A stretch of 64,000 nucleotides of DNA from Colletotrichum lupini. Its lineage: Eukaryota > Ascomycota > Sordariomycetes > Glomerellales > Glomerellaceae. The DNA lies in assembly GCF_023278565.1 (NCBI RefSeq), contig NC_064672.1:1860001-1924000 (forward strand), in the 5' to 3' direction. The notes beneath the pieces were generated by a model, which worked only from the letters and a program-made list of their open reading frames with translations, did not search any database and was not told where the DNA came from. This document shows, in pieces, positions 1,856 through 42,900 of the stretch; within the stretch, counting starts at the first letter, position 1; every line of letters begins with the position of its first letter. The position numbers were made by a program, and so were the translations under genes.

Positions 1856-2847
1856 AACTAATCGGACTTCGTTTTTTTTTTTTTTAGAATACTCGGGTTA
1901 GAAATATTTTAAAAATAAATTATAGCTAATTAGAGTATTATTACCTAATTAAGGTCCGCTCTATAAAACATAATTTTAATTTATATTTTTTTTTACCCTA
2001 ACTAAGTTATGTCCCTTTTTTTAATTTCTATTCTTTATTATAACTTTTATTAAAAGGTTTTATTATAAAACTTATTATCGTACTTAAAATTTATTAATAA
2101 TTAATTAAAAATATTTCTAAATTAATTTTATAATACTTTTTTATTATTATAAAAATAATAGTTTTAAGTTTTATATTAATAATAAAAAGGGCTAGCCTAA
2201 GAATCTCCCTATATTTAAAACCGATAATATAAGTTTTATCCTTATTATTATAATTAAATACGCAATTTATTTACTTATTTTTATAATAATAAAGTTAAGT
2301 AATCTTATTACTAAAAGAACTTTATTACTATTACTTAGAGGTTAATAACTATTATTAGTCGTTTCTTAATATATTTAAAAAGTATTTTAAAAAAGGTTAT
2401 CGTATTAACTCCGCAATTTTTTATAAAAGATCCCTCTCTTTTATTATTAACCTCGAGGTTATTTATAAATTACTTCTTATTTTATATTAATATTTTTAAC
2501 CTTATTAATAATTTTTTATAAAATATTATACTAAAATAATATTATTTATAAAGGGCTGGAATACGCCCCTAAATACTTTTTAAAAGCCTAAGGCTATTAT
2601 AAATAATAAAGCGTTATTTACTATCCTTTCTAAATAAAATAGTACTATAAATAAAAATATTTTTAAAATATTTCTAGTTTATAAAACTAATTATTTTTAA
2701 TAAGACGTTATTATAATAAAAATAAATATTAAGCTCGGCCTTAAAGAGAGCTATAAAGTTTATAAATTATAAAACGCTATTAATTATAATAAATATAACT
2801 TATTCTTTAATTAACGCTCTTCTTAACTAGATTTTATAACCTACCCT
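1856..2847. other. Degenerate AT-rich DNA of the outer TIR element
   Basis: About 1 kb between the left terminal repeat and the first nested insertion. It is RIP-mutated, with stops in every frame. I see no second copy in the window and no recognisable domain. Confidence 0.5.
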
Positions 2848-3278
2848 CTTTTTAATATATTTATTTTTTTTATTTTTACTTTTACTAGCTACTTAGGCAA
2901 TTCTCGATATTAGCTATATAGTATTAATATATAATATTAATAGATACTCCTACTATCTCGTTAGACTATTCTTTTTAGATTTTTCAACTTTTTAACTTTC
3001 CCTTTTATAAAGTTTATAACTATAGATTATTAATAGTAATATTAAGTACCCGATATTACTACTTTATAAGCCGCTTACTTAGCTAAGTTTATTACCCTCT
3101 AAATAATAGTAGCTTATAATAATATAGTATTAGAGATACCCTTATTACCGTCGTTAAGAATAATACTAACCTTACTAATATACGCTTTTAACTTTAACTC
3201 GTATATATATATATATATTTATTACCTCGTTTCCTTTATTAAAATTAAAAAATACTTCCCTTACTATTTATTACTATC

Positions 3279-3349
3279 GCCCTATTACTATTACCCTATT
3301 ACTATTACCCTATTACTATTACCCTATTACTATTACCCTATTACTATTG
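3279..3349. repeat. 14-bp minisatellite inside retroposon copy 1
   Basis: About five tandem copies of CCCTATTACTATTA, running into simple ATT/ACT repeats up to about 3,368. The matching place in copy 2 (about 9,594-9,635) has only a trinucleotide AGTAAT run, so the array expanded in one copy after transposition. Confidence 0.85.
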
Positions 3350-3472
3350 CTATTACTATTACTATTAAATTATTTATTTTAAATATATATTATTGAAATA
3401 CTGAGACGCGTAGTTATTATTAACCCCTAGGGCTTTTTTAATAACTAAAAGTTCGATCCTATAAGTATTATA

Positions 3473-4581
3473 TACCCCCTGACGGAGCAATCTGCCGGGG
3501 CCGTACTATATATTACGTATTAAGGAAAACTAGGTATATTACGCTCTATACCTAATTACTAATTAAAATTAACCGACTTAACCGTTATCTTTTTTTATTA
3601 ATAGCTCCCGACCTTCCCCCGTAGTCCTCTAAGTTCTAATTATTTAGAAAGCGAGCTATACTTACTTTAATATATATAAAACCTCTTAGTACTAGCCTAC
3701 GTAAGTAGTTAAATCCCGTATTATATACTCCTTTTTATTAAGGGTTAGGGGGCCCCTTATATATTCTTTTATATTTATAATATAGCTTATATTAAAGGGA
3801 TTTCTAGCTTTATAAAGTATAATTTCTAAGTTAGTATTAATATATTAAATTTTAATATTTATATTAGCCTAGCTATTTATAACGTTCGTACTATTACTTA
3901 GCTAAATTCCGTACTATCAAAAAGTATTTTACTAATCCTTAAGTATATTTATATTAGTTATAATAATTATAGTATTGAGTTAGCTAAAGAGGGCGCCTAG
4001 CCCGAGAGGGGTAAACTTATTAATAAGTATTTTTAGGTTCTTATTAAAGTAGTATTTTAACTAGCTAACTTCTTAACTAGTTATCTAACTAACTATTTAG
4101 GTAGTAGTTTATATATTAATAAGTTTATTTAGTAAATTTATTTAGTAAATTTATTTAGTTTAAATAGAGCTTTAAGTAATATTAAAAGTAATAAGGATAG
4201 AAAGAATTTTTACGAGCTTTAAAGAGTAGTAAATATTAACTATTTAGCCCTTTTTTTAGAAACCTCTACGTTATTATTAAAATTTAAAACCTTTATAGTT
4301 AAAGGCTGCCTCTAATTATTATAGCTAATTATTATAGCTAACTATTACGGCCGACCTTTATTATTAATCTTTTTAGCTAGTGCCGCTATAAGGTAGCTTA
4401 CTTATCCCGAATTATATAGCGGTTTTTATATTAAAATTATTATATTACGTTAAGCGCGTACTTAGGGCATATTACGTATATTATATAGTTAAAAAGTATA
4501 CCGTATTATATAATTTCCCTTAAAAACGTAATCCCGTTAAGGTTGATCTTTTGCGCTTATAAAGCCGGAAAAAAACCACTA
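3473..4581 (+). mobile_element. Short retroposon-like element A, full copy A1
   Basis: Inserted in retroposon copy 1; the uninterrupted site is visible in copy 2 near 9,505. Flanked by a perfect 13-bp duplication TATAAGTATTATA (3,460-3,472 and 4,582-4,594). It starts with a GC-rich stretch (CCCCCTGACGGAGC) and ends at an A-rich GGAAAAAAACC stretch. Its 3' 300 bp recur at 10,662-10,966 and its 5' 280 bp recur reversed at about 11,505-11,756. The 13-bp target duplication and 5'-truncated relative point to a non-LTR mechanism. No protein domain seen. Confidence 0.65.
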
Positions 4582-5050
4582 TATAAGTATTATACTAAAG
4601 GACCCCGAACTATAGTATAGCTATCTTAAGGAATACGGATTAAATATTATTAATTTAAAAATTAAAAAGATATATATTAATATAGCTATTATTTTAATAA
4701 GTACTTAGCTTATATAATATAATAACCTCGAAATACCTAACTAATTTTAGAATATTATTAATATTTTAAAACCGTAGCGTAAGAGTAGGTTAAAAAAGAC
4801 TAAAAAGGATATTCTAAAGTTATTAAATAAGGCGGAAAGTAGGGGGCAGTTTTTAGCTATTTAGAGGTTAATTAATATATTATAGTAGGATCGTTAGTAT
4901 TTAGTAATAACTACGGCCGGCTATTATTAATTATAAAGTTTATTATATAATAAAAATACTTAATATTAACCTTAATAAACTAGCTTACTCGTAAAAGTAA
5001 AAATGGCCCCTGATGAGGCAGACCGGACCCTAAAGGGCTTTTTAATATAT

Positions 5051-5842
5051 ATAAGCCGACTTACTTAGTATTTTATAAATACTATTACTCTAACTTTAAA
5101 CTAAATAAAGATATTTTTAATAAATTACTTTATTAATACTTATATATCGTTATATTTAATATTAATTATTTTTAAAAAGTTTTTAAAACCCCTAAGTAAA
5201 TAGGCTAAAATAATAAGGCTATTAAAAATAAGCCGATCTAACCTAACCCCGCTAATAATTCTAATAATAATAAAACGGATTTTTAAATAAACCCCGCTAT
5301 TTCTACTTAAATCTTTATTAAAGATATAAATAAATGAAAAGTATAATTAAGAGTTAAGAGATAATAAAGAATAATTAATTTAAAGAAGTTTATAAATAAA
5401 GAGTTTATTAAAATAGAAGTGTTTTATTTACTTTTTAAAAGTAATACTATATAAATTAAAAATACTATAATATTATAAATAAATATTTATAATAAATATA
5501 TAAATAGAGGTTAAGGCTATAAATACTAAGTAAATAATATATTAATTATAAAAACTTCCTAAAGATTTCTTAAAAATCTCTTAAAAATGTCTTAAAAGTT
5601 TCCTAAATATTTCCTAAATATTTCCTTAATATGTTTTAAATATTTCCTTAATATATCTTAATATCTTTTTAAATATTTCTATCTTTTTAATTTTTATAAT
5701 ATTTATAAATATAAATTAATTAATAAATAATAAAATAATAAACTATTAACTTATTTTAATAAATTATAGGCTTATTATATAATTATATATTTAATATAAT
5801 TTACTATTAATAATTATAATATTAATATTATATAATAATATA
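5051..5842. other. AT-rich DNA with degenerate short repeats
   Basis: RIP-mutated. Contains clustered variants of TTTCCTTAATAT / TTTCCTAAATAT at about 5,555-5,680, a degenerate 12-15-bp tandem repeat. No coding signal or relation to the named elements seen. Confidence 0.5.
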
Positions 5843-8800: not shown

Positions 8801-10312
8801 AATAAGGAATTATATAAATAAATAACTAATATAGCTTAGTATTTAATGGAAATAGAGCTAATAGAAAGTAGTTTATAATAATAATAAATTATTATAATTA
8901 TATTAAAAAAGGTATTTAAATAAACGTCGCTATAATTTACTTTTTATATATTTTAAATATATAATAAAAAAAAGCCTTACTTATTTAAGATTTATAAAAG
9001 CTTATATCCCTTTGGGGTCTGGTCCGCTTTATTAGGGGCCATCTTTGCCTTTATAGGTAAGCTAGTTTATTAGGGTTAATATTAAGTGTTTTTATTACGT
9101 ATTTTAATAAACTTTATAACTAACTATAGCCGGCCGTAGCCGTTACTAACTATTAATATTAACTAAACTTAAGATATTAATAACCCCGCTGCCGTAGTAT
9201 ATTAATCGCCTTTTTAATAGCTAAATACTACCCCTTACTTTCTCTTTTTATCTTATTTAATAATAACCTCTCCCTATTAATATTTCTATTTAATACGCTC
9301 GCCTACGCTCTTTTTAAACTTTTAATTATATTATTAAGTCTAGGCTTATTTATACTACTCTATTATATTAAAAGGGCGCTAATAAGGGTAATAATTATTA
9401 TAATATATCTATCCGTCTTTTATAAGTCGATATTACTAATATAATATTTATTAAAGCGGTCTTTTTATAGCTCGGGGTCGTTTAGTATAATACTTATAGG
9501 ATCGAACTTCTAGTTATTAAAGAAGCCCTAAGGGTTAACGAGTTATTAATAGCGTCTCGGTATTTTAATAAAGTATACTTAAGGTAAATAGTTAAATAGT
9601 AATAGTAATAGTAATAGTAACGGTAAGAGAAGCGTCTTTAACTTTAATAAAGGAAACGAGGTAATAAATATATATATATATACGAGTTAAAATTAAAAGT
9701 ATTAAGGTAAATATCGTAAGGTCGGTATTATTCTTAACGGCGGCGACGAGGGTATATCTAATACTATACTATTATAAGCTACTATTACTTAGAAAGGTAG
9801 TTAACTTAGCTAGGTGCGTAGTAAGTTTATAAAGTAGTAGCGTTAAGCGCCTATTACCGTTTATAATCCGTAGTTATAAACTTTATAAGAGGGAAAGTTA
9901 AAAAGTTAGAAAATCTAAAAAAATAGTCTAGCGAGATAGTATAAGTATCTACTAATACTATATATTAATACTATATAACTAATATTAAGAATTGCCCGAG
10001 TAGCTAGTAAAGGCAGAATATTAAAATAAATAAAAGCTTATATTACTAACTAATTTAAAATTTATAAATTTGAAATAAATAATATAATAGTTCTAAATAA
10101 GTACGCAACTTATAATAGTATTTTTATTTTTAAAAATCTTAAACTAGAGCTTAAGTTAAAAAGGATAATAAGAATAGCTATATTAATATAGTTATCTTTA
10201 TTATTTTTATAAAAAGGTATTATTTTTTTAAATTAATTAAAAAATAAAATAGTAACGTTAGTATAAGAGCGACGCTAGTATATTAATTTCTAATACCGGT
10301 ATATTAATTCTT
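5843..10312. mobile_element. hAT-like TIR DNA transposon, copy a
   Basis: Bounded by inverted GGGAATTAATATACC ends (right end mutated to ATTAATTCTT). Each terminal region holds two direct copies of a ~20-bp motif containing ATTAATATACCGG, likely transposase-binding sites. Subtracting the retroposon at 9,008-10,029 and its 14-bp duplication leaves 3,434 bp, matching copies b and c (3,433 and 3,432 bp). Those copies have 8-bp target duplications, as in hAT elements. At copy a the 8-bp flanks do not match convincingly. Many in-frame TAA/TAG stops; non-functional. The hAT assignment rests on target-duplication length and element size, not on a recognised transposase. Confidence 0.75.
9008..10029 (+). 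mobile_element. Non-LTR-type retroposon, copy 2 (1,022 bp)
   Basis: Inserted in hAT-like copy a, with a 14-bp duplication ATAAAAGCTTATAT at 8,994-9,007 and 10,030-10,043; the empty site is visible in copy b near 38,915. Starts CCCTTTGGGGTCTGGTCCGC and ends with an A-rich tail (10,018-10,029). It begins at the same 5' base as copy 1, suggesting both are full length (about 1.02-1.05 kb). No reverse transcriptase domain. Confidence 0.78.
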
Positions 10313-10661
10313 AATAAAAAGTAATAAATATTAATATTAAGAACTAGCTAAATTCTATTAAGATTTTCTATAACGTTATAATATATATAAAAATAAAACT
10401 AATATTAATAAGAGTCCGAGGGAGTAATAAGTTAATTAATATACTAACTTAATTATAAAAGCTATATATATAACTCTAATTTATATTTTTTAAATACTAT
10501 TATTAATAAAGAAAGCTAAAAAGAATTAGAATAATAAAAGTTAAAATCGGGAGATTATTAAAAAGAAATAGAATAAGAAATAAATAAAAAGAATAAAAAA
10601 ATAAAAAAGGTAATTATAAAAGAAAAGAGTAAGTAAAGGGCTTAATATAATTAATTATATA

Positions 10662-35763: not shown

Positions 35764-38700
35764 GGGAATTAATATACCGGCGTTATAAATTAATATACCG
35801 GCGTTGCTCTTATACTAGCGTTACTATTCTACTTTTTAATTAGTTTAAAAAAGAATTATTAATATAATTAGATTTTACCAAATACTTATAAAGTATCCTA
35901 AGCCTTTATTCTTTTACTTTTTTTATACTTAAATTATATTATTAAGTCTCGAAATCTAATTTATAATATTTATTTATAATAACTTTTATAATTAGAGTTA
36001 AAAACGTTCCCTAAGGTTAATTTTAAAATAATACTCTTATTACAAAACTTCCCTCTTTATAAAAACGACTATTAATTAATTATAGCCTCTTAGTATTATT
36101 TAGTTAATTATTATTATCTCCCTTTTTAAAAAGTAACTACTTTAATATAGATTAATTTTATAAAATTAATAATTTTAAAAAGTAATACGACTGTATTACT
36201 AAGCTCTTCGTTAATATATTATAAAATATATAGCTTTTTATAAACGATTATTTTAATATAAAGCTTATATTATATTTTACTTATTATTTTCTTAAGAGAA
36301 TAATAAAAACTTAGTAAATTACCTTCTTACGACTTTTTTTAAAATATAACCCCTCTCTTCTGAATAAATAATTTTAATAACTCTTTTATTTTATAATAGA
36401 ATAGTTTAGTAATACTTTTTGACTTATTAAATAAGTTATTAAGATTAATTAATAGTTAATAATAATACTATTTTAATAATAAGAATATATTTATTAATAA
36501 TAATAAATATAGGGTCCCTAAGTTAATTTATTACCCTATTTACTCCTACGGCTATTTTTTATTTAAAATAAAGCGTTTTTTTAAACTATAGCTTCTTATT
36601 ATATTCTAAATAATCGATCCTCTTTTCTTTTTATAATTAAAATCCTAAATATACCGATTTTTAATAATTTAAAATAAACTTATAATACTCTTTTTAACTA
36701 AGTTAATAATTTTATAAGAACTAATAAATTTAGTATTATAAAGTAAAATAAGTATAAAGCTCGAGGCCGAGTTATTTAATATACTTTTTAATATAATTAT
36801 TTTAATAAGCCTAAGCTTATATAAAGTATTAATATTTAATAATATAAGTCTCGTAAATATAGTTATAAATAATAAGTTATTACTAAGGCTTAAAAAGAGG
36901 ATAAGTAACTATTATATTATTATTTAAACCCTTAATATAATTAATATAATTATAACCTTAGTTTTAAAGCTTTTATATACTTTTTATATTATAAGCTTAT
37001 TAAAGTAGTTAAGGATATTATTAAAATTATAAACTAACGAGTTAAGATTCGGGCTTATAATATATATATTATTATTTAAAAATAGTTCTTAAAGTTCTTA
37101 TTTACTTAGCGAGATATTTATAATACTAAGGCTCATATAAACTAAAAGAAACTAGCTAAATACTTATTAATTATAGTATTAATTAAGCTATTTAATAAGC
37201 GGGATATTTTATATATAATAAAATAAGTATACGACGAGCTAAACTACTTTATTAGCCTTATTTAGACCTTTTCTTACTATTTTTAAATATAAAAGCGATT
37301 CCTTAAAGTAATTAGTTTTAATAATACTTATAATACTAATCGTTTTAAGCTCCCTCTTTTTTAAGTTATTAAGTAAACCTACTTTAAATCTATTTATAAC
37401 GCTATGTTTAGCTTTATTAATAATAAGAAATTAAAAAGTTTCCGGTTTTTTTTAATAAGTATTTACTAACTTATAAACTAATACTTAGTCCGTTACCCTA
37501 TTATTATTATTATAAACTATAATAAATAAATAAAAACTATACTAAACGAGTAGTTCCCGGACGTTTAATAATAACTTTACATTTATTATATTAACTTAAA
37601 TATTATACTTAAGGCTAAGTAAAAATAGGTTAAGGACCGTAGCTATAGTAATAATAATAATAAGTTTAATAATAAGGGATATTAGCTATTAATATAAATA
37701 ATAGCTATACTAAATAATTAAAATAAAGCTTATATTAATATACTTATTAATAAGCCCCCTTTTTATATATATTATAAGGTCTTTATAATATAAAAGCTTA
37801 TTATTTTTATTAAAACTAAGTATATTTTTAAAAAAGCCTAGACTAAGCTTTATAAAGAGTTTAATAACTAATACCTAATTTTTTAGTATTTTTACGTAAT
37901 ATACTTATTTTTAAAAATATAGTAGGCTTATTACTTTATTTAAAAATATTAGAACTTTAATACTCGTATTATTTTTAATATTAAATTAAATAATAATAAT
38001 ATTAAGGGTTATTTTTTAAATAATCTTAATTACTTATATTAGCTTATTAATATTATATAAAATATAATTAGTAATTAAGAACTATACTTTTACTGAGTTT
38101 ATATAGAGAACGAGGTACTTATAAACTAAGAGTATATAAATACTTATTTTAAATATTTAAATAAACTTTAAATAATACTTTTTTTAAAATATTTTATTTT
38201 AATTAGGATATAAGGCCGGTTTATAAAAAAAGTAATATTATTTAATAAGAGGCTATTTTTAAACATTTTTAGATTTTATAATTTAAATTATACTATTTTA
38301 ATTAAGTTAAGTATTTTATATTATTATAAAATCTATTTTAAAATGTTAAATTTAGCTATTTTTAATAGGTAAGAGGTATACTCTTAGTAGTGTTTTTAAA
38401 AACTATCTTTTTTAAATTTATATTACCGGATTTTTAACCCTAAAATTACTATATCCCTTTATAATAAGCTAAAGAATATAATATAACTTATTTTATTATA
38501 ACTAGCCTTATTTAAAAAAGGCCGGTTAGCTAATTAAGCCCGTATTACTTATAATAGTTAAGCTATAAATAATAAAAAGCGAAGTCATTTGTTTAAAAAT
38601 AAAAATAAGTTAACGTTAACTAAGTTTATAAAAAAAATAAATTAGCTAAGTTAAAGCTAAATATTAAGGTTATTTTAATAATAAATAAAGAGCTAATTTA

Positions 38701-39324
38701 GTATTTTTAATAAGGAGAGGATAACGGGGAATTATATAAATAAATAGTTAATATAGTTCAGTATTTAGAAAAAATAGAACTAATAAAAATAGTTTATAAT
38801 AATAATAAATTATTATAACTACGTCAAAAGAGGTAATTAAGCGGACGTTATTATAATTTACTTTTTATATATTTTAAATATATCATAAAAAAAGCCTTAT
38901 TTATTTAAGATTTATAAAAGCTTATATTACTAACTAATTTAAAATTTATAAATCTTAAATAAGTAATATAGTAATTTTAAATAAGTGCGTAGGTTATAGT
39001 AGTATTTCTATTTTTAAAAATCTTAAACTAGAGCTTAAATTAGAGAGGATAGTAAAAATAGCTATTTTTCTTTTTTTTTTATTCTACCTTTACTAGTTGC
39101 TCGGGCGGTTCTCAATATCGATTACACAGTATTAATATATAGTATCAATAGATACTCCCACTATCTCAATAGACTACTAGTAAAAATAGCTATATTAGTA
39201 TAATTACCCTTACTACTTTTATAAGGAAGTACTATTTTTTTAAACTAATTAAAAAATAGAATAGTAATGCTAATATAAGAGCGACGCTAGTATATTAATT
39301 TATAATACCGGTATATTAATTCCT
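35764..39324. mobile_element. hAT-like TIR DNA transposon, copy b
   Basis: Perfect 8-bp target duplication TATATAAA (35,756-35,763; 39,325-39,332). Terminal GGGAATTAATATACCGG and reverse-complement right end. Own length 3,433 bp after removing the 113-bp retroposon fragment and its 15-bp duplication. Same orientation as copy a. Confidence 0.82.
39066..39178 (-). mobile_element. 113-bp 5'-truncated retroposon fragment that escaped RIP
   Basis: Inserted in hAT-like copy b with a perfect 15-bp duplication AGTAAAAATAGCTAT (39,051-39,065; 39,179-39,193). Its poly-T start on the plus strand is the A-tail of a minus-strand insertion. It matches the 3' end of the retroposon at 9,935-10,022 and 2,881-2,975. 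Unlike those it keeps several CA/TG dinucleotides (for example ACACAG, CTCAATA, CCCACT) where they read TA. Confidence 0.85.
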
Positions 39325-39900
39325 TATATAAAAAGAATAGAAAATTGGTAATTAATTTAGTAAACTTATAAGATCTTATAAGGGGTTAGCCCCTTAAAAT
39401 AGAGCTTATATTAGTATTTAATAAATATAGAATTTACCTAAGAGCCTTACTTAATACGGGAATTAATAAGTACGGATTTATGAATAATTACGTAACCTCT
39501 TTATTATAGTAGTTTTACGTAGCCCTATTTTATAAATTACTATACTTAATCCCTATTATTAGGTTAAATAAAGAGCTATTAAATAATACTAGTATAATAT
39601 AAACCGCTAATTTATATATTAATTAATAAGTCCTTTTAAAAGTACCCCTCTTTTAGTTTAATACGGGCCGCTACGACCTAATCTTAAGATAGAAGTAGTT
39701 CGAATATTATAGGGAAAACTTTAATATTTATTATTAATAACTAATATAGCCTAAGGACTTATTATTATAAAAGACATCCTGTACTATTATTAAGGATATC
39801 GAGGACCTATATAGTCTAGAAGTTATTAATATATAATACTAAATTAATACTAACTACTAATAGGACCTATTTAAAATAAATATAAACCGTATTATAAAAA

Positions 39901-42900
39901 GGGAATTAATATACCGGTATTATAAATTAATATACCGGCGTCGCTTTTATATTAATATTACTATTTTACTTTTTAATTAGTCTAAGAAAATAATACCTCC
40001 CTATAAAAATAGTAAGAATAACTATATTAATATAGCTATTCTTATTATTCTCTCTAACCTAAGCTCTAGTTTAAGATTTCTAAAGATAAGAATACTATTA
40101 TAACTTACGTACTCGTTTAAAACTATTATATTACTTATTTAAAATATATAAATCTTAAATTAGTTAGTAATATAAGCTTTTATAAATTTTAAATAAATAA
40201 GGCTTTTTTTTATTACATATTTAAAATATATAAAAAGTAAATTATAATAACGTCCGCTTAATTACCCTTTTTAACGTAGTTATAATAATTTATTATTATT
40301 ATAAACTACTTTTTATTAGCTCTATTTTTTTTAAATACTAAGTTATATTAGTTATTTACTTATATAATTCCCTATTATCCTCCCCTTATTAAGAACGCTA
40401 AACTAACTCCTTATTTATTATTAAAATAAGCTTAATATTTAGTTTTAACTTTATTAATTTTCTTTTTTTATAAACCTAGTTAGTATTAATTAATTTTTAT
40501 TTCTAAATAAGTAGCCTCGCTTCTTATTACTTATACCTTAATTATTATAAATAATACGAGCTTAATTAACTAACTAGCCTTTTTTAAATAAGGCTAGGTA
40601 TAATAAAATAAGCTATACTATATTCTTTAACCTATTATAAAAAAATATAATAATTTTAAAATTAAAGATCTAATAATATAAATTTAAAAAAGACGTTTTT
40701 TAAAAATATTACTAAGAATATACTTTTTATTTATTAAAAATAGTTAAATTTAATATTTTAAAATAGATTTTATAATAATATAAAATACTTAGCTTAATTA
40801 AAATAATATAATTTAAATTATAAAATCTAAGAAGGTCTAGAAATAGCCTCTTATTAAATAATATTACTTTTTTTATAAACCGGCCTTATATCCTAATTAA
40901 AATAAAATATTTTAAAAAAAGTATTATTTAAAGTTTATTTAAATATTTAAAATAAGTATTTATATACTCTTAGTTTATAAGTACCTCGTTCTCTATATAA
41001 ACTCAGTAAAAGTATAGTTCTTAATTACTAATTATATTTTATATAATATTAATAAGCTAATATAAGTAATTAAGATTATTTAAAAAATAACCCTTAATAT
41101 TATTATTATTTAATTTAATATTAAAAATAATACGAGTATTAAAGTTCTAATATTTTTAAATAAAGTAATAAGCCTACTATATTTTTAAAAATAAGTATAT
41201 TACGTAAAAATACTAAAAAATTAGGTATTAGTTATTAAACTCTTTATAAAGCTTAGTCTAGGCTTTTTTAAAAATATACTTAGTTTTAATAAAAATAATA
41301 AGCTTTTATATTATAAAGACCTTATAATATATATAAAAAGGGGGCTTATTAATAAGTATATTAATATAAGCTTTATTTTAATTATTTAGTATAGCTATTA
41401 TTTATATTAATAGCTAATATCCCTTATTATTAAACTTATTATTATTATTACTATAGCTACGGTCCTTAACCTATTTTTACTTAGCCTTAAGTATAATATT
41501 TAAGTTAATATAATAAATGTAAAGTTATTATTAAACGTCCGGGAACTATTCGTTTAGTATAGTTTTTATTTATTTATTATAGTTTATAATAATAATAATA
41601 AGGTAACGGACTAAGTATTAGTTTATAAATTAGTAAATACTTATTAAAAAAAACTAAAAGCCTTCTAGTCTCTCGTTATTAATAAGGCTAAATATAATAT
41701 TATAAATAGATTTAAAATAGGTCTAGTTAATAACTTCAAAAAAAGGAGCTTAAAGTAATTAATATTATAAGTATTATTAAAGCTAATTACCTTAGGGAAT
41801 CGCTTTTATATTTAGAAATAGTAAAAAAAGGTTTAAATAAAGCTAATAAGGTAGTTTAGCTCGTCGTTTACTTATTTTACTATATATAAGATATCTCGCT
41901 TATTAAATAGCTTAATTAATATTATAATTAGTAAATATTTAACTAGTTTTCTTTAGTTTATATAAGCCCTAATATTATAAATATATTATTAAATAAATAA
42001 GGATTTTAAAAACTATTTTTAAATAATAATACGTATATTACGAGCCCGAATCCTAACTTATTAGTTTATAGTTTTAATAATATCCTTAACTATTTTAATA
42101 AGCTTATAATATAACAAGTATATAGAGGTTTTAAAGCTAGGGTTATAATTATATTAATTATATTAAGAGTTTAAATAATAATATAATAACTACTTATCCT
42201 CTTCTTAAGCCTCGGTAATAACTTATTATTTATAACTATATTTATAAAACTTATATTATTAAATATTAACGCTTTATATAAGCCTAGGCTTATTAAAACG
42301 ATTATATTAAAAAGTATATTAAATAATTTAGCCTCGAGCTTTATACCTATTTTATTTTATAATACTAAGTTTATTAGTTTTTATAAAATTATTAACTTAA
42401 TTAAAAAGAGTTTTATAAGTTTATTTTAACTTATTAAAAATTAATAAGTTTAGGGTTTTAATTATAAAAAGAAAAAGATCGGTTACTTAGAGTATAATAA
42501 GAAGTGATAGTTTAAAAAGACGCTTCGCTTTAAATAAAAAATAGCTATAGGGGTAAATAAAATGATAAGTTAACTTAGGGACCCTATATTTATTATTATT
42601 AATAAATATATTTTTATTATTAAAGTAGTATTATTATCAGTTATTAATTAGTTTTAATAACCTATTTAATAAGCTAAGAAATATTATTAAACTACTTTAT
42701 TATAAAATAAAAAAGTTATTAAGATTATTTACTAAAGAGAGAGGGTTTATATTTTAAAAAAGGTTATAAAAAAGTAGTCCACTAGGTTTTTATTATTCTC
42801 TTAGGGAAATAGTAAATAAAATATAATATAAGCTCTATATTAAAATAGTTATTTATAAAAGGTTATATATTTTATAATATACTAGCTAAGAGCTTAGTAA

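Follow-up and report, generated by a model that had tools for sequence, protein, structure and literature searches.

Length-graded CpA retention in an A-tailed retroposon family of Colletotrichum lupini and the half-mutated state of a short copy within a RIP-mutated repeat

What becomes of a repeat copy of about 110 bp that lies inside a heavily RIP-mutated repeat is the question raised by an insertion in the Colletotrichum lupini genome (63,443,975 bases in 12 contigs). The window, which is the whole 64,000-base stretch analysed (C1:1,860,001-1,924,000), has a GC content that falls to 16-29% from about 2 to 47 kb and is about 46-63% over 47-62 kb. For a gene in that GC-rich part, the best named relatives are in Colletotrichum (C. 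tofieldiae and C. incanum, 83-84%). The insertion is surrounded by an AT-rich, RIP-mutated host repeat at 38,700-39,600 (no strand assigned), and further copies of the host segment lie at about 39,892-40,395 and 10,021-10,576. The original prediction described a retroposon fragment that had escaped RIP within a heavily mutated host. The state of the host is confirmed, as the 300+300 bp flanking the window copy contain 7 CA/TG dinucleotides against 128 TA.

The insertion is real. The whole insert (39,066-39,177, minus strand) is 112 bp long, carries an A-rich tail and is flanked by identical 16-bp direct repeats with the sequence TAGTAAAAATAGCTAT, namely the first (39,050-39,065) and second (39,178-39,193) copies of the target-site duplication, neither given a strand. 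The predicted fragment of 113 bp at 39,066-39,178 therefore stands as an insertion but ends one base earlier, and the predicted duplications are indeed identical but 16 bp rather than 15 bp long. With at most one mismatch, the 16-mer is found in the window at the two duplication sites only; the chance expectation is 0.12 matches, and two matches occur in 0 of 100 shuffles. On the minus strand, a single extra base at the 5' junction (39,177) separates the duplication from the element start and is followed by the 97-bp 3' core of the short form, which starts TAGTC (39,080-39,176; window position is 39,177 minus core column), and then by an A-rich 3' tail of 14 bases after core column 97 (39,066-39,079; T-rich on the plus strand).

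Nine diagnostic core columns (18, 27, 31, 39, 52, 78, 82, 85 and 91) are CpA or TpG in intact copies. The window copy retains CpA/TpG at four of them, columns 18, 31, 52 and 78 (39,159; 39,146; 39,125; 39,099), and reads TA at the other five, columns 27, 39, 82, 85 and 91 (39,150; 39,138; 39,095; 39,092; 39,086). It differs from the intact copy at C1:3724701 at 7 positions, all of them C to T or G to A. With that copy as the reference, the changes fall on 6/12 CpA, 0/12 CpT, 0/8 CpC and 1/8 CpG sites (CpA 6/12 versus other contexts 1/28; Fisher p=0.0014), which is the concentration of C to T at CpA on both strands that marks a RIP-mutated repeat. The CpA retention expected of a sub-threshold RIP escapee is not seen in the window copy, whose four of nine sites place it centrally among the short copies. 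In long copies, the corresponding changes are 274/324 at CpA, 47/324 at CpT, 50/216 at CpC and 66/216 at CpG. The window copy is about half RIP-mutated and not RIP-free, and its interpretation as a RIP-free relic is rejected by the five TA sites together with the CpA-specific changes. Neither the escape from RIP nor the preservation of the ancestral 3' end can be upheld for this copy; it is other copies that preserve the ancestral end.

Two relatives lie in the window. The long form at 9,008-10,031 on the plus strand is about 1 kb long, lies in another host-repeat copy, has its own duplication and keeps 1/9 sites. The second relative, at 2,861-5,037 on the minus strand, keeps 0/9 sites and spans 2.2 kb, and its homology to the 9-10 kb copy has been followed upstream from the core over about 504 bp only. 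Another repeat has probably interrupted this copy; direct repeats sought in 2,700-5,200 do not explain its composite structure. Sequence near 3,476, inside this relative, recurs beside other copies. The description of both relatives as about 1 kb long thus fits the 9-10 kb copy but not the one spanning 2.2 kb. The claim that CA and TG are kept where the relatives read TA applies to 4/9 sites of the window copy, against 0/9 and 1/9 in the relatives, while its remaining five also read TA.

Genome-wide, 3' ends of the family give 557 matches to a RIP-neutral 33-place core pattern, in which each C is taken as Y and each G as R with at most one mismatch, whereas the reversed control gives 0. For the comparison of copies, 72 stretches (257 kb) assembled from 109 loci, many of them overlapping, yielded 136 3' ends. 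The full gap-free core was present in 119 of these, the other 17 being dropped, and subtraction of three duplicates of one insertion left 116 distinct copies. Length classes were defined by target duplications and by homology upstream of the core: short copies have no upstream part (about 110 bp in all), mid copies have about 52-119 bp upstream (about 160-230 bp in all), longer truncated copies follow, and long copies are about 1 kb in all. All but one of the distinct copies (115) could be classed, the exception lying in a locus that ends 52 bp upstream. Four longer truncated copies (upstream 194-400 bp) reach the end of their stretch, so that only minimum lengths can be given for them. A large part of the full set was found with the window copy as the query, which biases it toward intact relatives. 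From the RIP-neutral search, 59 of the 100 places listed were usable (3 lacked the full core and 38 were left out), and this subset gives the same class order as the full set with smaller numbers.

The family has A-rich tails and upstream parts of 0, 52-119 and up to about 950 bp, so that the A-rich 3' tail and 5' truncation series of a non-LTR retroposon are both present, as are target-site duplications of variable length (16 bp at the window copy). On its duplications, A-tails and truncation series, the family would be classified as a LINE-mobilised non-LTR retroposon. A tRNA, 5S or 7SL head with a pol III promoter, as in a SINE, was not found by the Rfam search alone: no match at E<=0.1 occurs in three loci with intact copies (L023, L059 and L060), and the family is not filed as a SINE. 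Among 86 upstream modules, only 2 lack the 3' core, one of them with an interrupted core. The commonest combination of RIP-proof letters in long copies (10/27) is also the commonest in short copies (18/33), which fits repeated truncation of one family. The window copy is probably a short form of an A-tailed, non-autonomous retroposon that entered its host by target-primed retroposition.

A duplication is supported in 18/33 short copies, and all 18 start within one base of each other, 17 at 0 and 1 at 1 bp. This start lies directly after the A-run of the longer forms, whereas the starts of mid copies are scattered over 52-119 bp. The recurrence of the short start in 18/18 duplication-supported copies rejects the view of the window copy as a random fragment. 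Two candidate explanations of the fixed start were also rejected: a head recognised by Rfam gave no match, and an RNA fold is not exceptional, as the intact short copy has a z of -0.88 and 37/200 shuffles fold as well. At four places, C7:4864318 (L056), C7:4901126 (L043), C9:2078031 (L027) and C10:688487 (L042), the tail of a full copy is immediately succeeded by a second 3' piece that begins at core column 52, and these second pieces look as if truncated copies insert into ATA at the tail end. A longer family copy at C2:4008355 (L048) lies in another host-repeat copy within a few bases of the host position of the window copy, and this shared position is a possible insertion hot spot.

The check that the original prediction had proposed, a plot of CpA retention against copy length, was run on the 116 distinct copies and reveals a drop near 240 bp. 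The mean number of diagnostic sites retained is 4.82 in short (n=33), 3.65 in mid (n=31), 1.62 in longer truncated (n=24) and 1.33 in long copies (n=27), and short and mid copies together differ from the other two classes (p=3e-9). In the RIP-neutral subset, the same classes average 5.73 (11), 4.00 (14), 1.93 (14) and 1.50 (16) (short and mid versus the rest, p=9e-5). The difference between short and mid copies is not significant (p=0.11; RIP-neutral subset 0.14). Retention falls with length in both sets (Spearman -0.54 over 115 copies of the full set; -0.50, p=9e-5, over 55 copies of the RIP-neutral subset). Arranged by the number of bases upstream of the core, mean retention is 4.82 (0), 3.69 (1-70), 3.61 (70-130), 1.73 (130-300), 1.54 (300-600) and 1.33 (600-1000), with the main step between the 70-130 and 130-300 bins, near a total length of 240 bp. 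At least seven of the nine sites are kept by 11/33 short, 5/31 mid, 2/24 longer truncated and 0/27 long copies, and all nine by five short copies. Within AT-rich hosts alone, short copies keep 4.19 and long copies 1.23 sites (n=26 each, p=8e-6), and mid copies also differ from long ones (p=0.0002). When an intact 488-bp copy is used as a query, 22 of the 23 other alignments covering at least 390 bp are 72-76% identical and one is 82% identical, whereas 14 of the 15 alignments of only the last 160-210 bp or so are 88-93% identical and one is 83% identical, among the 40 scored of 376 candidates.

The two observations that were to count against a length rule, longer RIP-free copies and mutated short ones, are both present, so that the rule is graded and is not an exemption. 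The 488-bp copy C1:3724647-3725134 is RIP-free with all nine sites, and four pieces at C8:4238727-4239483, 91-98% identical to it with gaps between them, suggest a second longer RIP-free copy; age or place can therefore outweigh length. In addition, 10/33 short copies keep at most two of nine sites, which is incompatible with an exemption of short copies as such. The data support the length rule as a gradient and not as an absolute.

Retention also differs between GC-rich and AT-rich surroundings. The five short or mid copies with a GC content of at least 0.40 in both flanks keep 9, 9, 9, 8 and 9 sites, whereas only 6/54 short or mid copies in AT-rich hosts keep at least eight (Fisher 9e-5); among RIP-neutral copies only, the numbers are 4/4 and 3/20 (p=0.003). 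The sample with GC-rich flanks is small, comprising 4 short copies, 1 mid copy, the 488-bp copy, which keeps 9 sites, and 1 long copy. The six copies in which a single flank is GC-rich vary widely (9, 2, 7, 9, 4 and 3 sites kept), and fully intact short copies exist in AT-rich hosts as well, for example C1:3345853 (9/9). In AT-hosted short copies, 100/216 diagnostic sites remain while their own flanks have 200 CA/TG against 2,921 TA (24 of 26 copies, those with enough flank). The sole 1-kb copy with GC-rich flanks, C3:2116337 (L095), contains 0-2 CA/TG per 100 bp along the greater part of the element, whereas its flank windows have 8-17 CA/TG and are unmutated, so that RIP is confined to duplicated DNA in this one case and apparently weakens over the tens of bases next to the element edge. 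The final four CpA sites of this copy survive, and a single G/A change distinguishes its two duplications.

Timing alone could produce the same gradient if short copies were on average younger and had been inserted while RIP was fading, or after it had stopped, in what is now a clonal lineage, the last rounds of RIP having reached the half-mutated window copy. C. lupini is described as presumably clonal in PMC11645255, and the 488-bp copy is one that such timing would leave RIP-free. Duplications are near-identical, with 6 transitions in 241 bp for short (18 copies) and 3 in 282 bp for mid copies (20 copies), although the search itself favours matches. Among short and mid copies together, those with more private non-RIP substitutions tend to keep fewer sites (Spearman -0.28, p=0.02), indicating that age contributes; the coefficient for short copies alone is -0.19 (p=0.28). 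However, private changes are no fewer in short copies than in long ones, with means of 0.88 versus 0.41 for transversions and 0.42 versus 0.15 for other private non-RIP substitutions. Copies devoid of private non-RIP substitutions keep 5.15 sites if short (n=13), 4.71 if mid (n=14) and 1.41 if long (n=17; short versus long, p=4e-5), and the copy C2:7173946 keeps 9/9 sites in spite of 5 private non-RIP changes. With two or more such substitutions, short copies keep 3.44 sites (n=9) and long copies 1.67 (n=3), which is not a significant difference (p=0.22). Age alone does not explain the length gradient, the 488-bp copy notwithstanding, and timing as the whole explanation is unlikely.

The order of events at the window copy is a separate matter. 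In seven clear homologues of the host, picked by eye from 50 alignments, position 7 of the duplicated 16-mer is G in five, position 10 is C in one and position 15 is G in one, whereas both window duplications have A, T and A there. Since RIP would in any case saturate two of these three variable positions, which are CpA/TpG sites, the 16-mer is weak evidence for late insertion. A late insertion, proposed from the RIP-type sequence of the duplications, thus remains plausible with respect to the host's own RIP, and insertion after the main RIP of the host is favoured by these letters but not proved. An insertion after RIP had ceased altogether is not needed, as AT-hosted copies of about 1 kb are themselves heavily mutated (mean 1.23/9, n=26), several of them with identical duplications.

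It is improbable that the window copy derives from a source already partly RIP-mutated and has been unchanged since insertion. C5:2454939 (longer truncated) and C8:3538230 (short) each differ from it at only one of the nine sites, but its exact nine-site pattern occurs in no other copy of the set. The partly mutated short copies show 13 site patterns in 14, which rejects inheritance from one mutated source, and an inherited load should ignore the landing site, yet all five short or mid copies in GC-rich surroundings keep eight or nine sites. Very little probability attaches to duplication of the short copy within its host repeat followed by RIP of the whole unit as one long repeat, which has a precedent in C1:2751188, C1:5723626, C2:6693320 and C3:1365166, copies that share a duplication and flank and keep 1, 1, 0 and 1 of nine sites, since the window copy with its 16-bp flanks has no full-span match except itself (40 scored of 387 candidates) and, at 4/9 sites kept, it is not as CpA-poor as its host. 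The shared duplication of a short insertion copied to at least four places (L066, L098, L106 and L109) is ATAAAAAGTATATA, and C1:6885520 (L100) is a fifth place with the common downstream flank and a gapped core.

The state of a short copy in a RIP-mutated host is probably the outcome of two processes, length-gated direct RIP and a weaker, neighbour-driven mutation. The host repeat probably carried RIP mutations before the insertion. Copies above roughly 240 bp would be recognised and nearly cleared of CpA, whereas copies of about 110-230 bp would be recognised as repeats poorly or not at all. Short copies in RIP-mutated AT-rich repeat DNA would nevertheless be partly mutated through their neighbourhood, like a linker between repeats, and such neighbour-driven mutation would account for the loss of 5/9 sites in the window copy. 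The copies point to length gating of direct recognition, and the succession of host RIP, insertion and further RIP is consistent with the window copy; the neighbour effect may, by analogy, correspond to a DIM-2-type heterochromatin route. The PF00145 DNA methylase profile matches three genome loci with frames free of stops, which are candidates assigned to neither RID nor DIM-2.

The family may, tentatively, serve as a natural assay that splits two RIP routes in one genome. That reading, which as a whole is less likely than not, joins a homology route that is gated near 240 bp and stops at the element edge to a neighbourhood route that hits sub-threshold copies only inside RIP-mutated heterochromatin, with CpA bias and reduced efficiency. 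If it is true, CpA loss in lone versus embedded short copies would report on each route independently of crosses, also in clonal fungi. The length rules of RIP come mostly from Neurospora tester constructs. A family with 110-bp, 160-230-bp or so, and 1-kb copies that share a common 97-bp end allows natural copies to be compared site by site, with partial control for age and surroundings, and this comparison supports a threshold near 240 bp. A second, neighbour-driven loss would limit the use of short repeats as unmutated references in AT-rich fungal genomes.

RIP in Neurospora is reported to be triggered by as few as 155 bp and to be substantial at 220 bp (PMC4858203). The present family resembles N. 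crassa, as presented in PMC4858203 and PMC9970103, in that retention rises below roughly 150-300 bp and copies of about 1 kb are almost cleared of CpA. It differs in that natural, old Colletotrichum copies take the place of a tester construct, the effect is a gradient, and even short copies are half mutated when they lie inside repeats. PMC11969663 describes mutation by DIM-2, in the absence of RID, of single-copy DNA that borders RIPed repeats. Similarly, sub-threshold copies here lose CpA mainly when embedded in a RIP-mutated repeat, but the involvement of the enzyme is suggested by the position of the copies alone. The retroposons also resemble the LINE-mobilised retroposons of Magnaporthe described in PMC2104539, the WEIRD, MGL and Mg-SINE chimeras, in their variable 3' pieces, their 14-bp-scale duplications and the recurrent break points in the template. 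Unlike those, the family starts TAGTC after an A-run, which departs from the GCC*A/U switching motif given there, and it has no identified fusion partner. In Zymoseptoria tritici, MITEs are said to escape RIP through their short length (PMC9970103). In both of these RIP-bearing plant pathogens short repeats are less mutated, but the C. lupini elements are A-tailed retroposons, and it is one family that is compared across a series of lengths.
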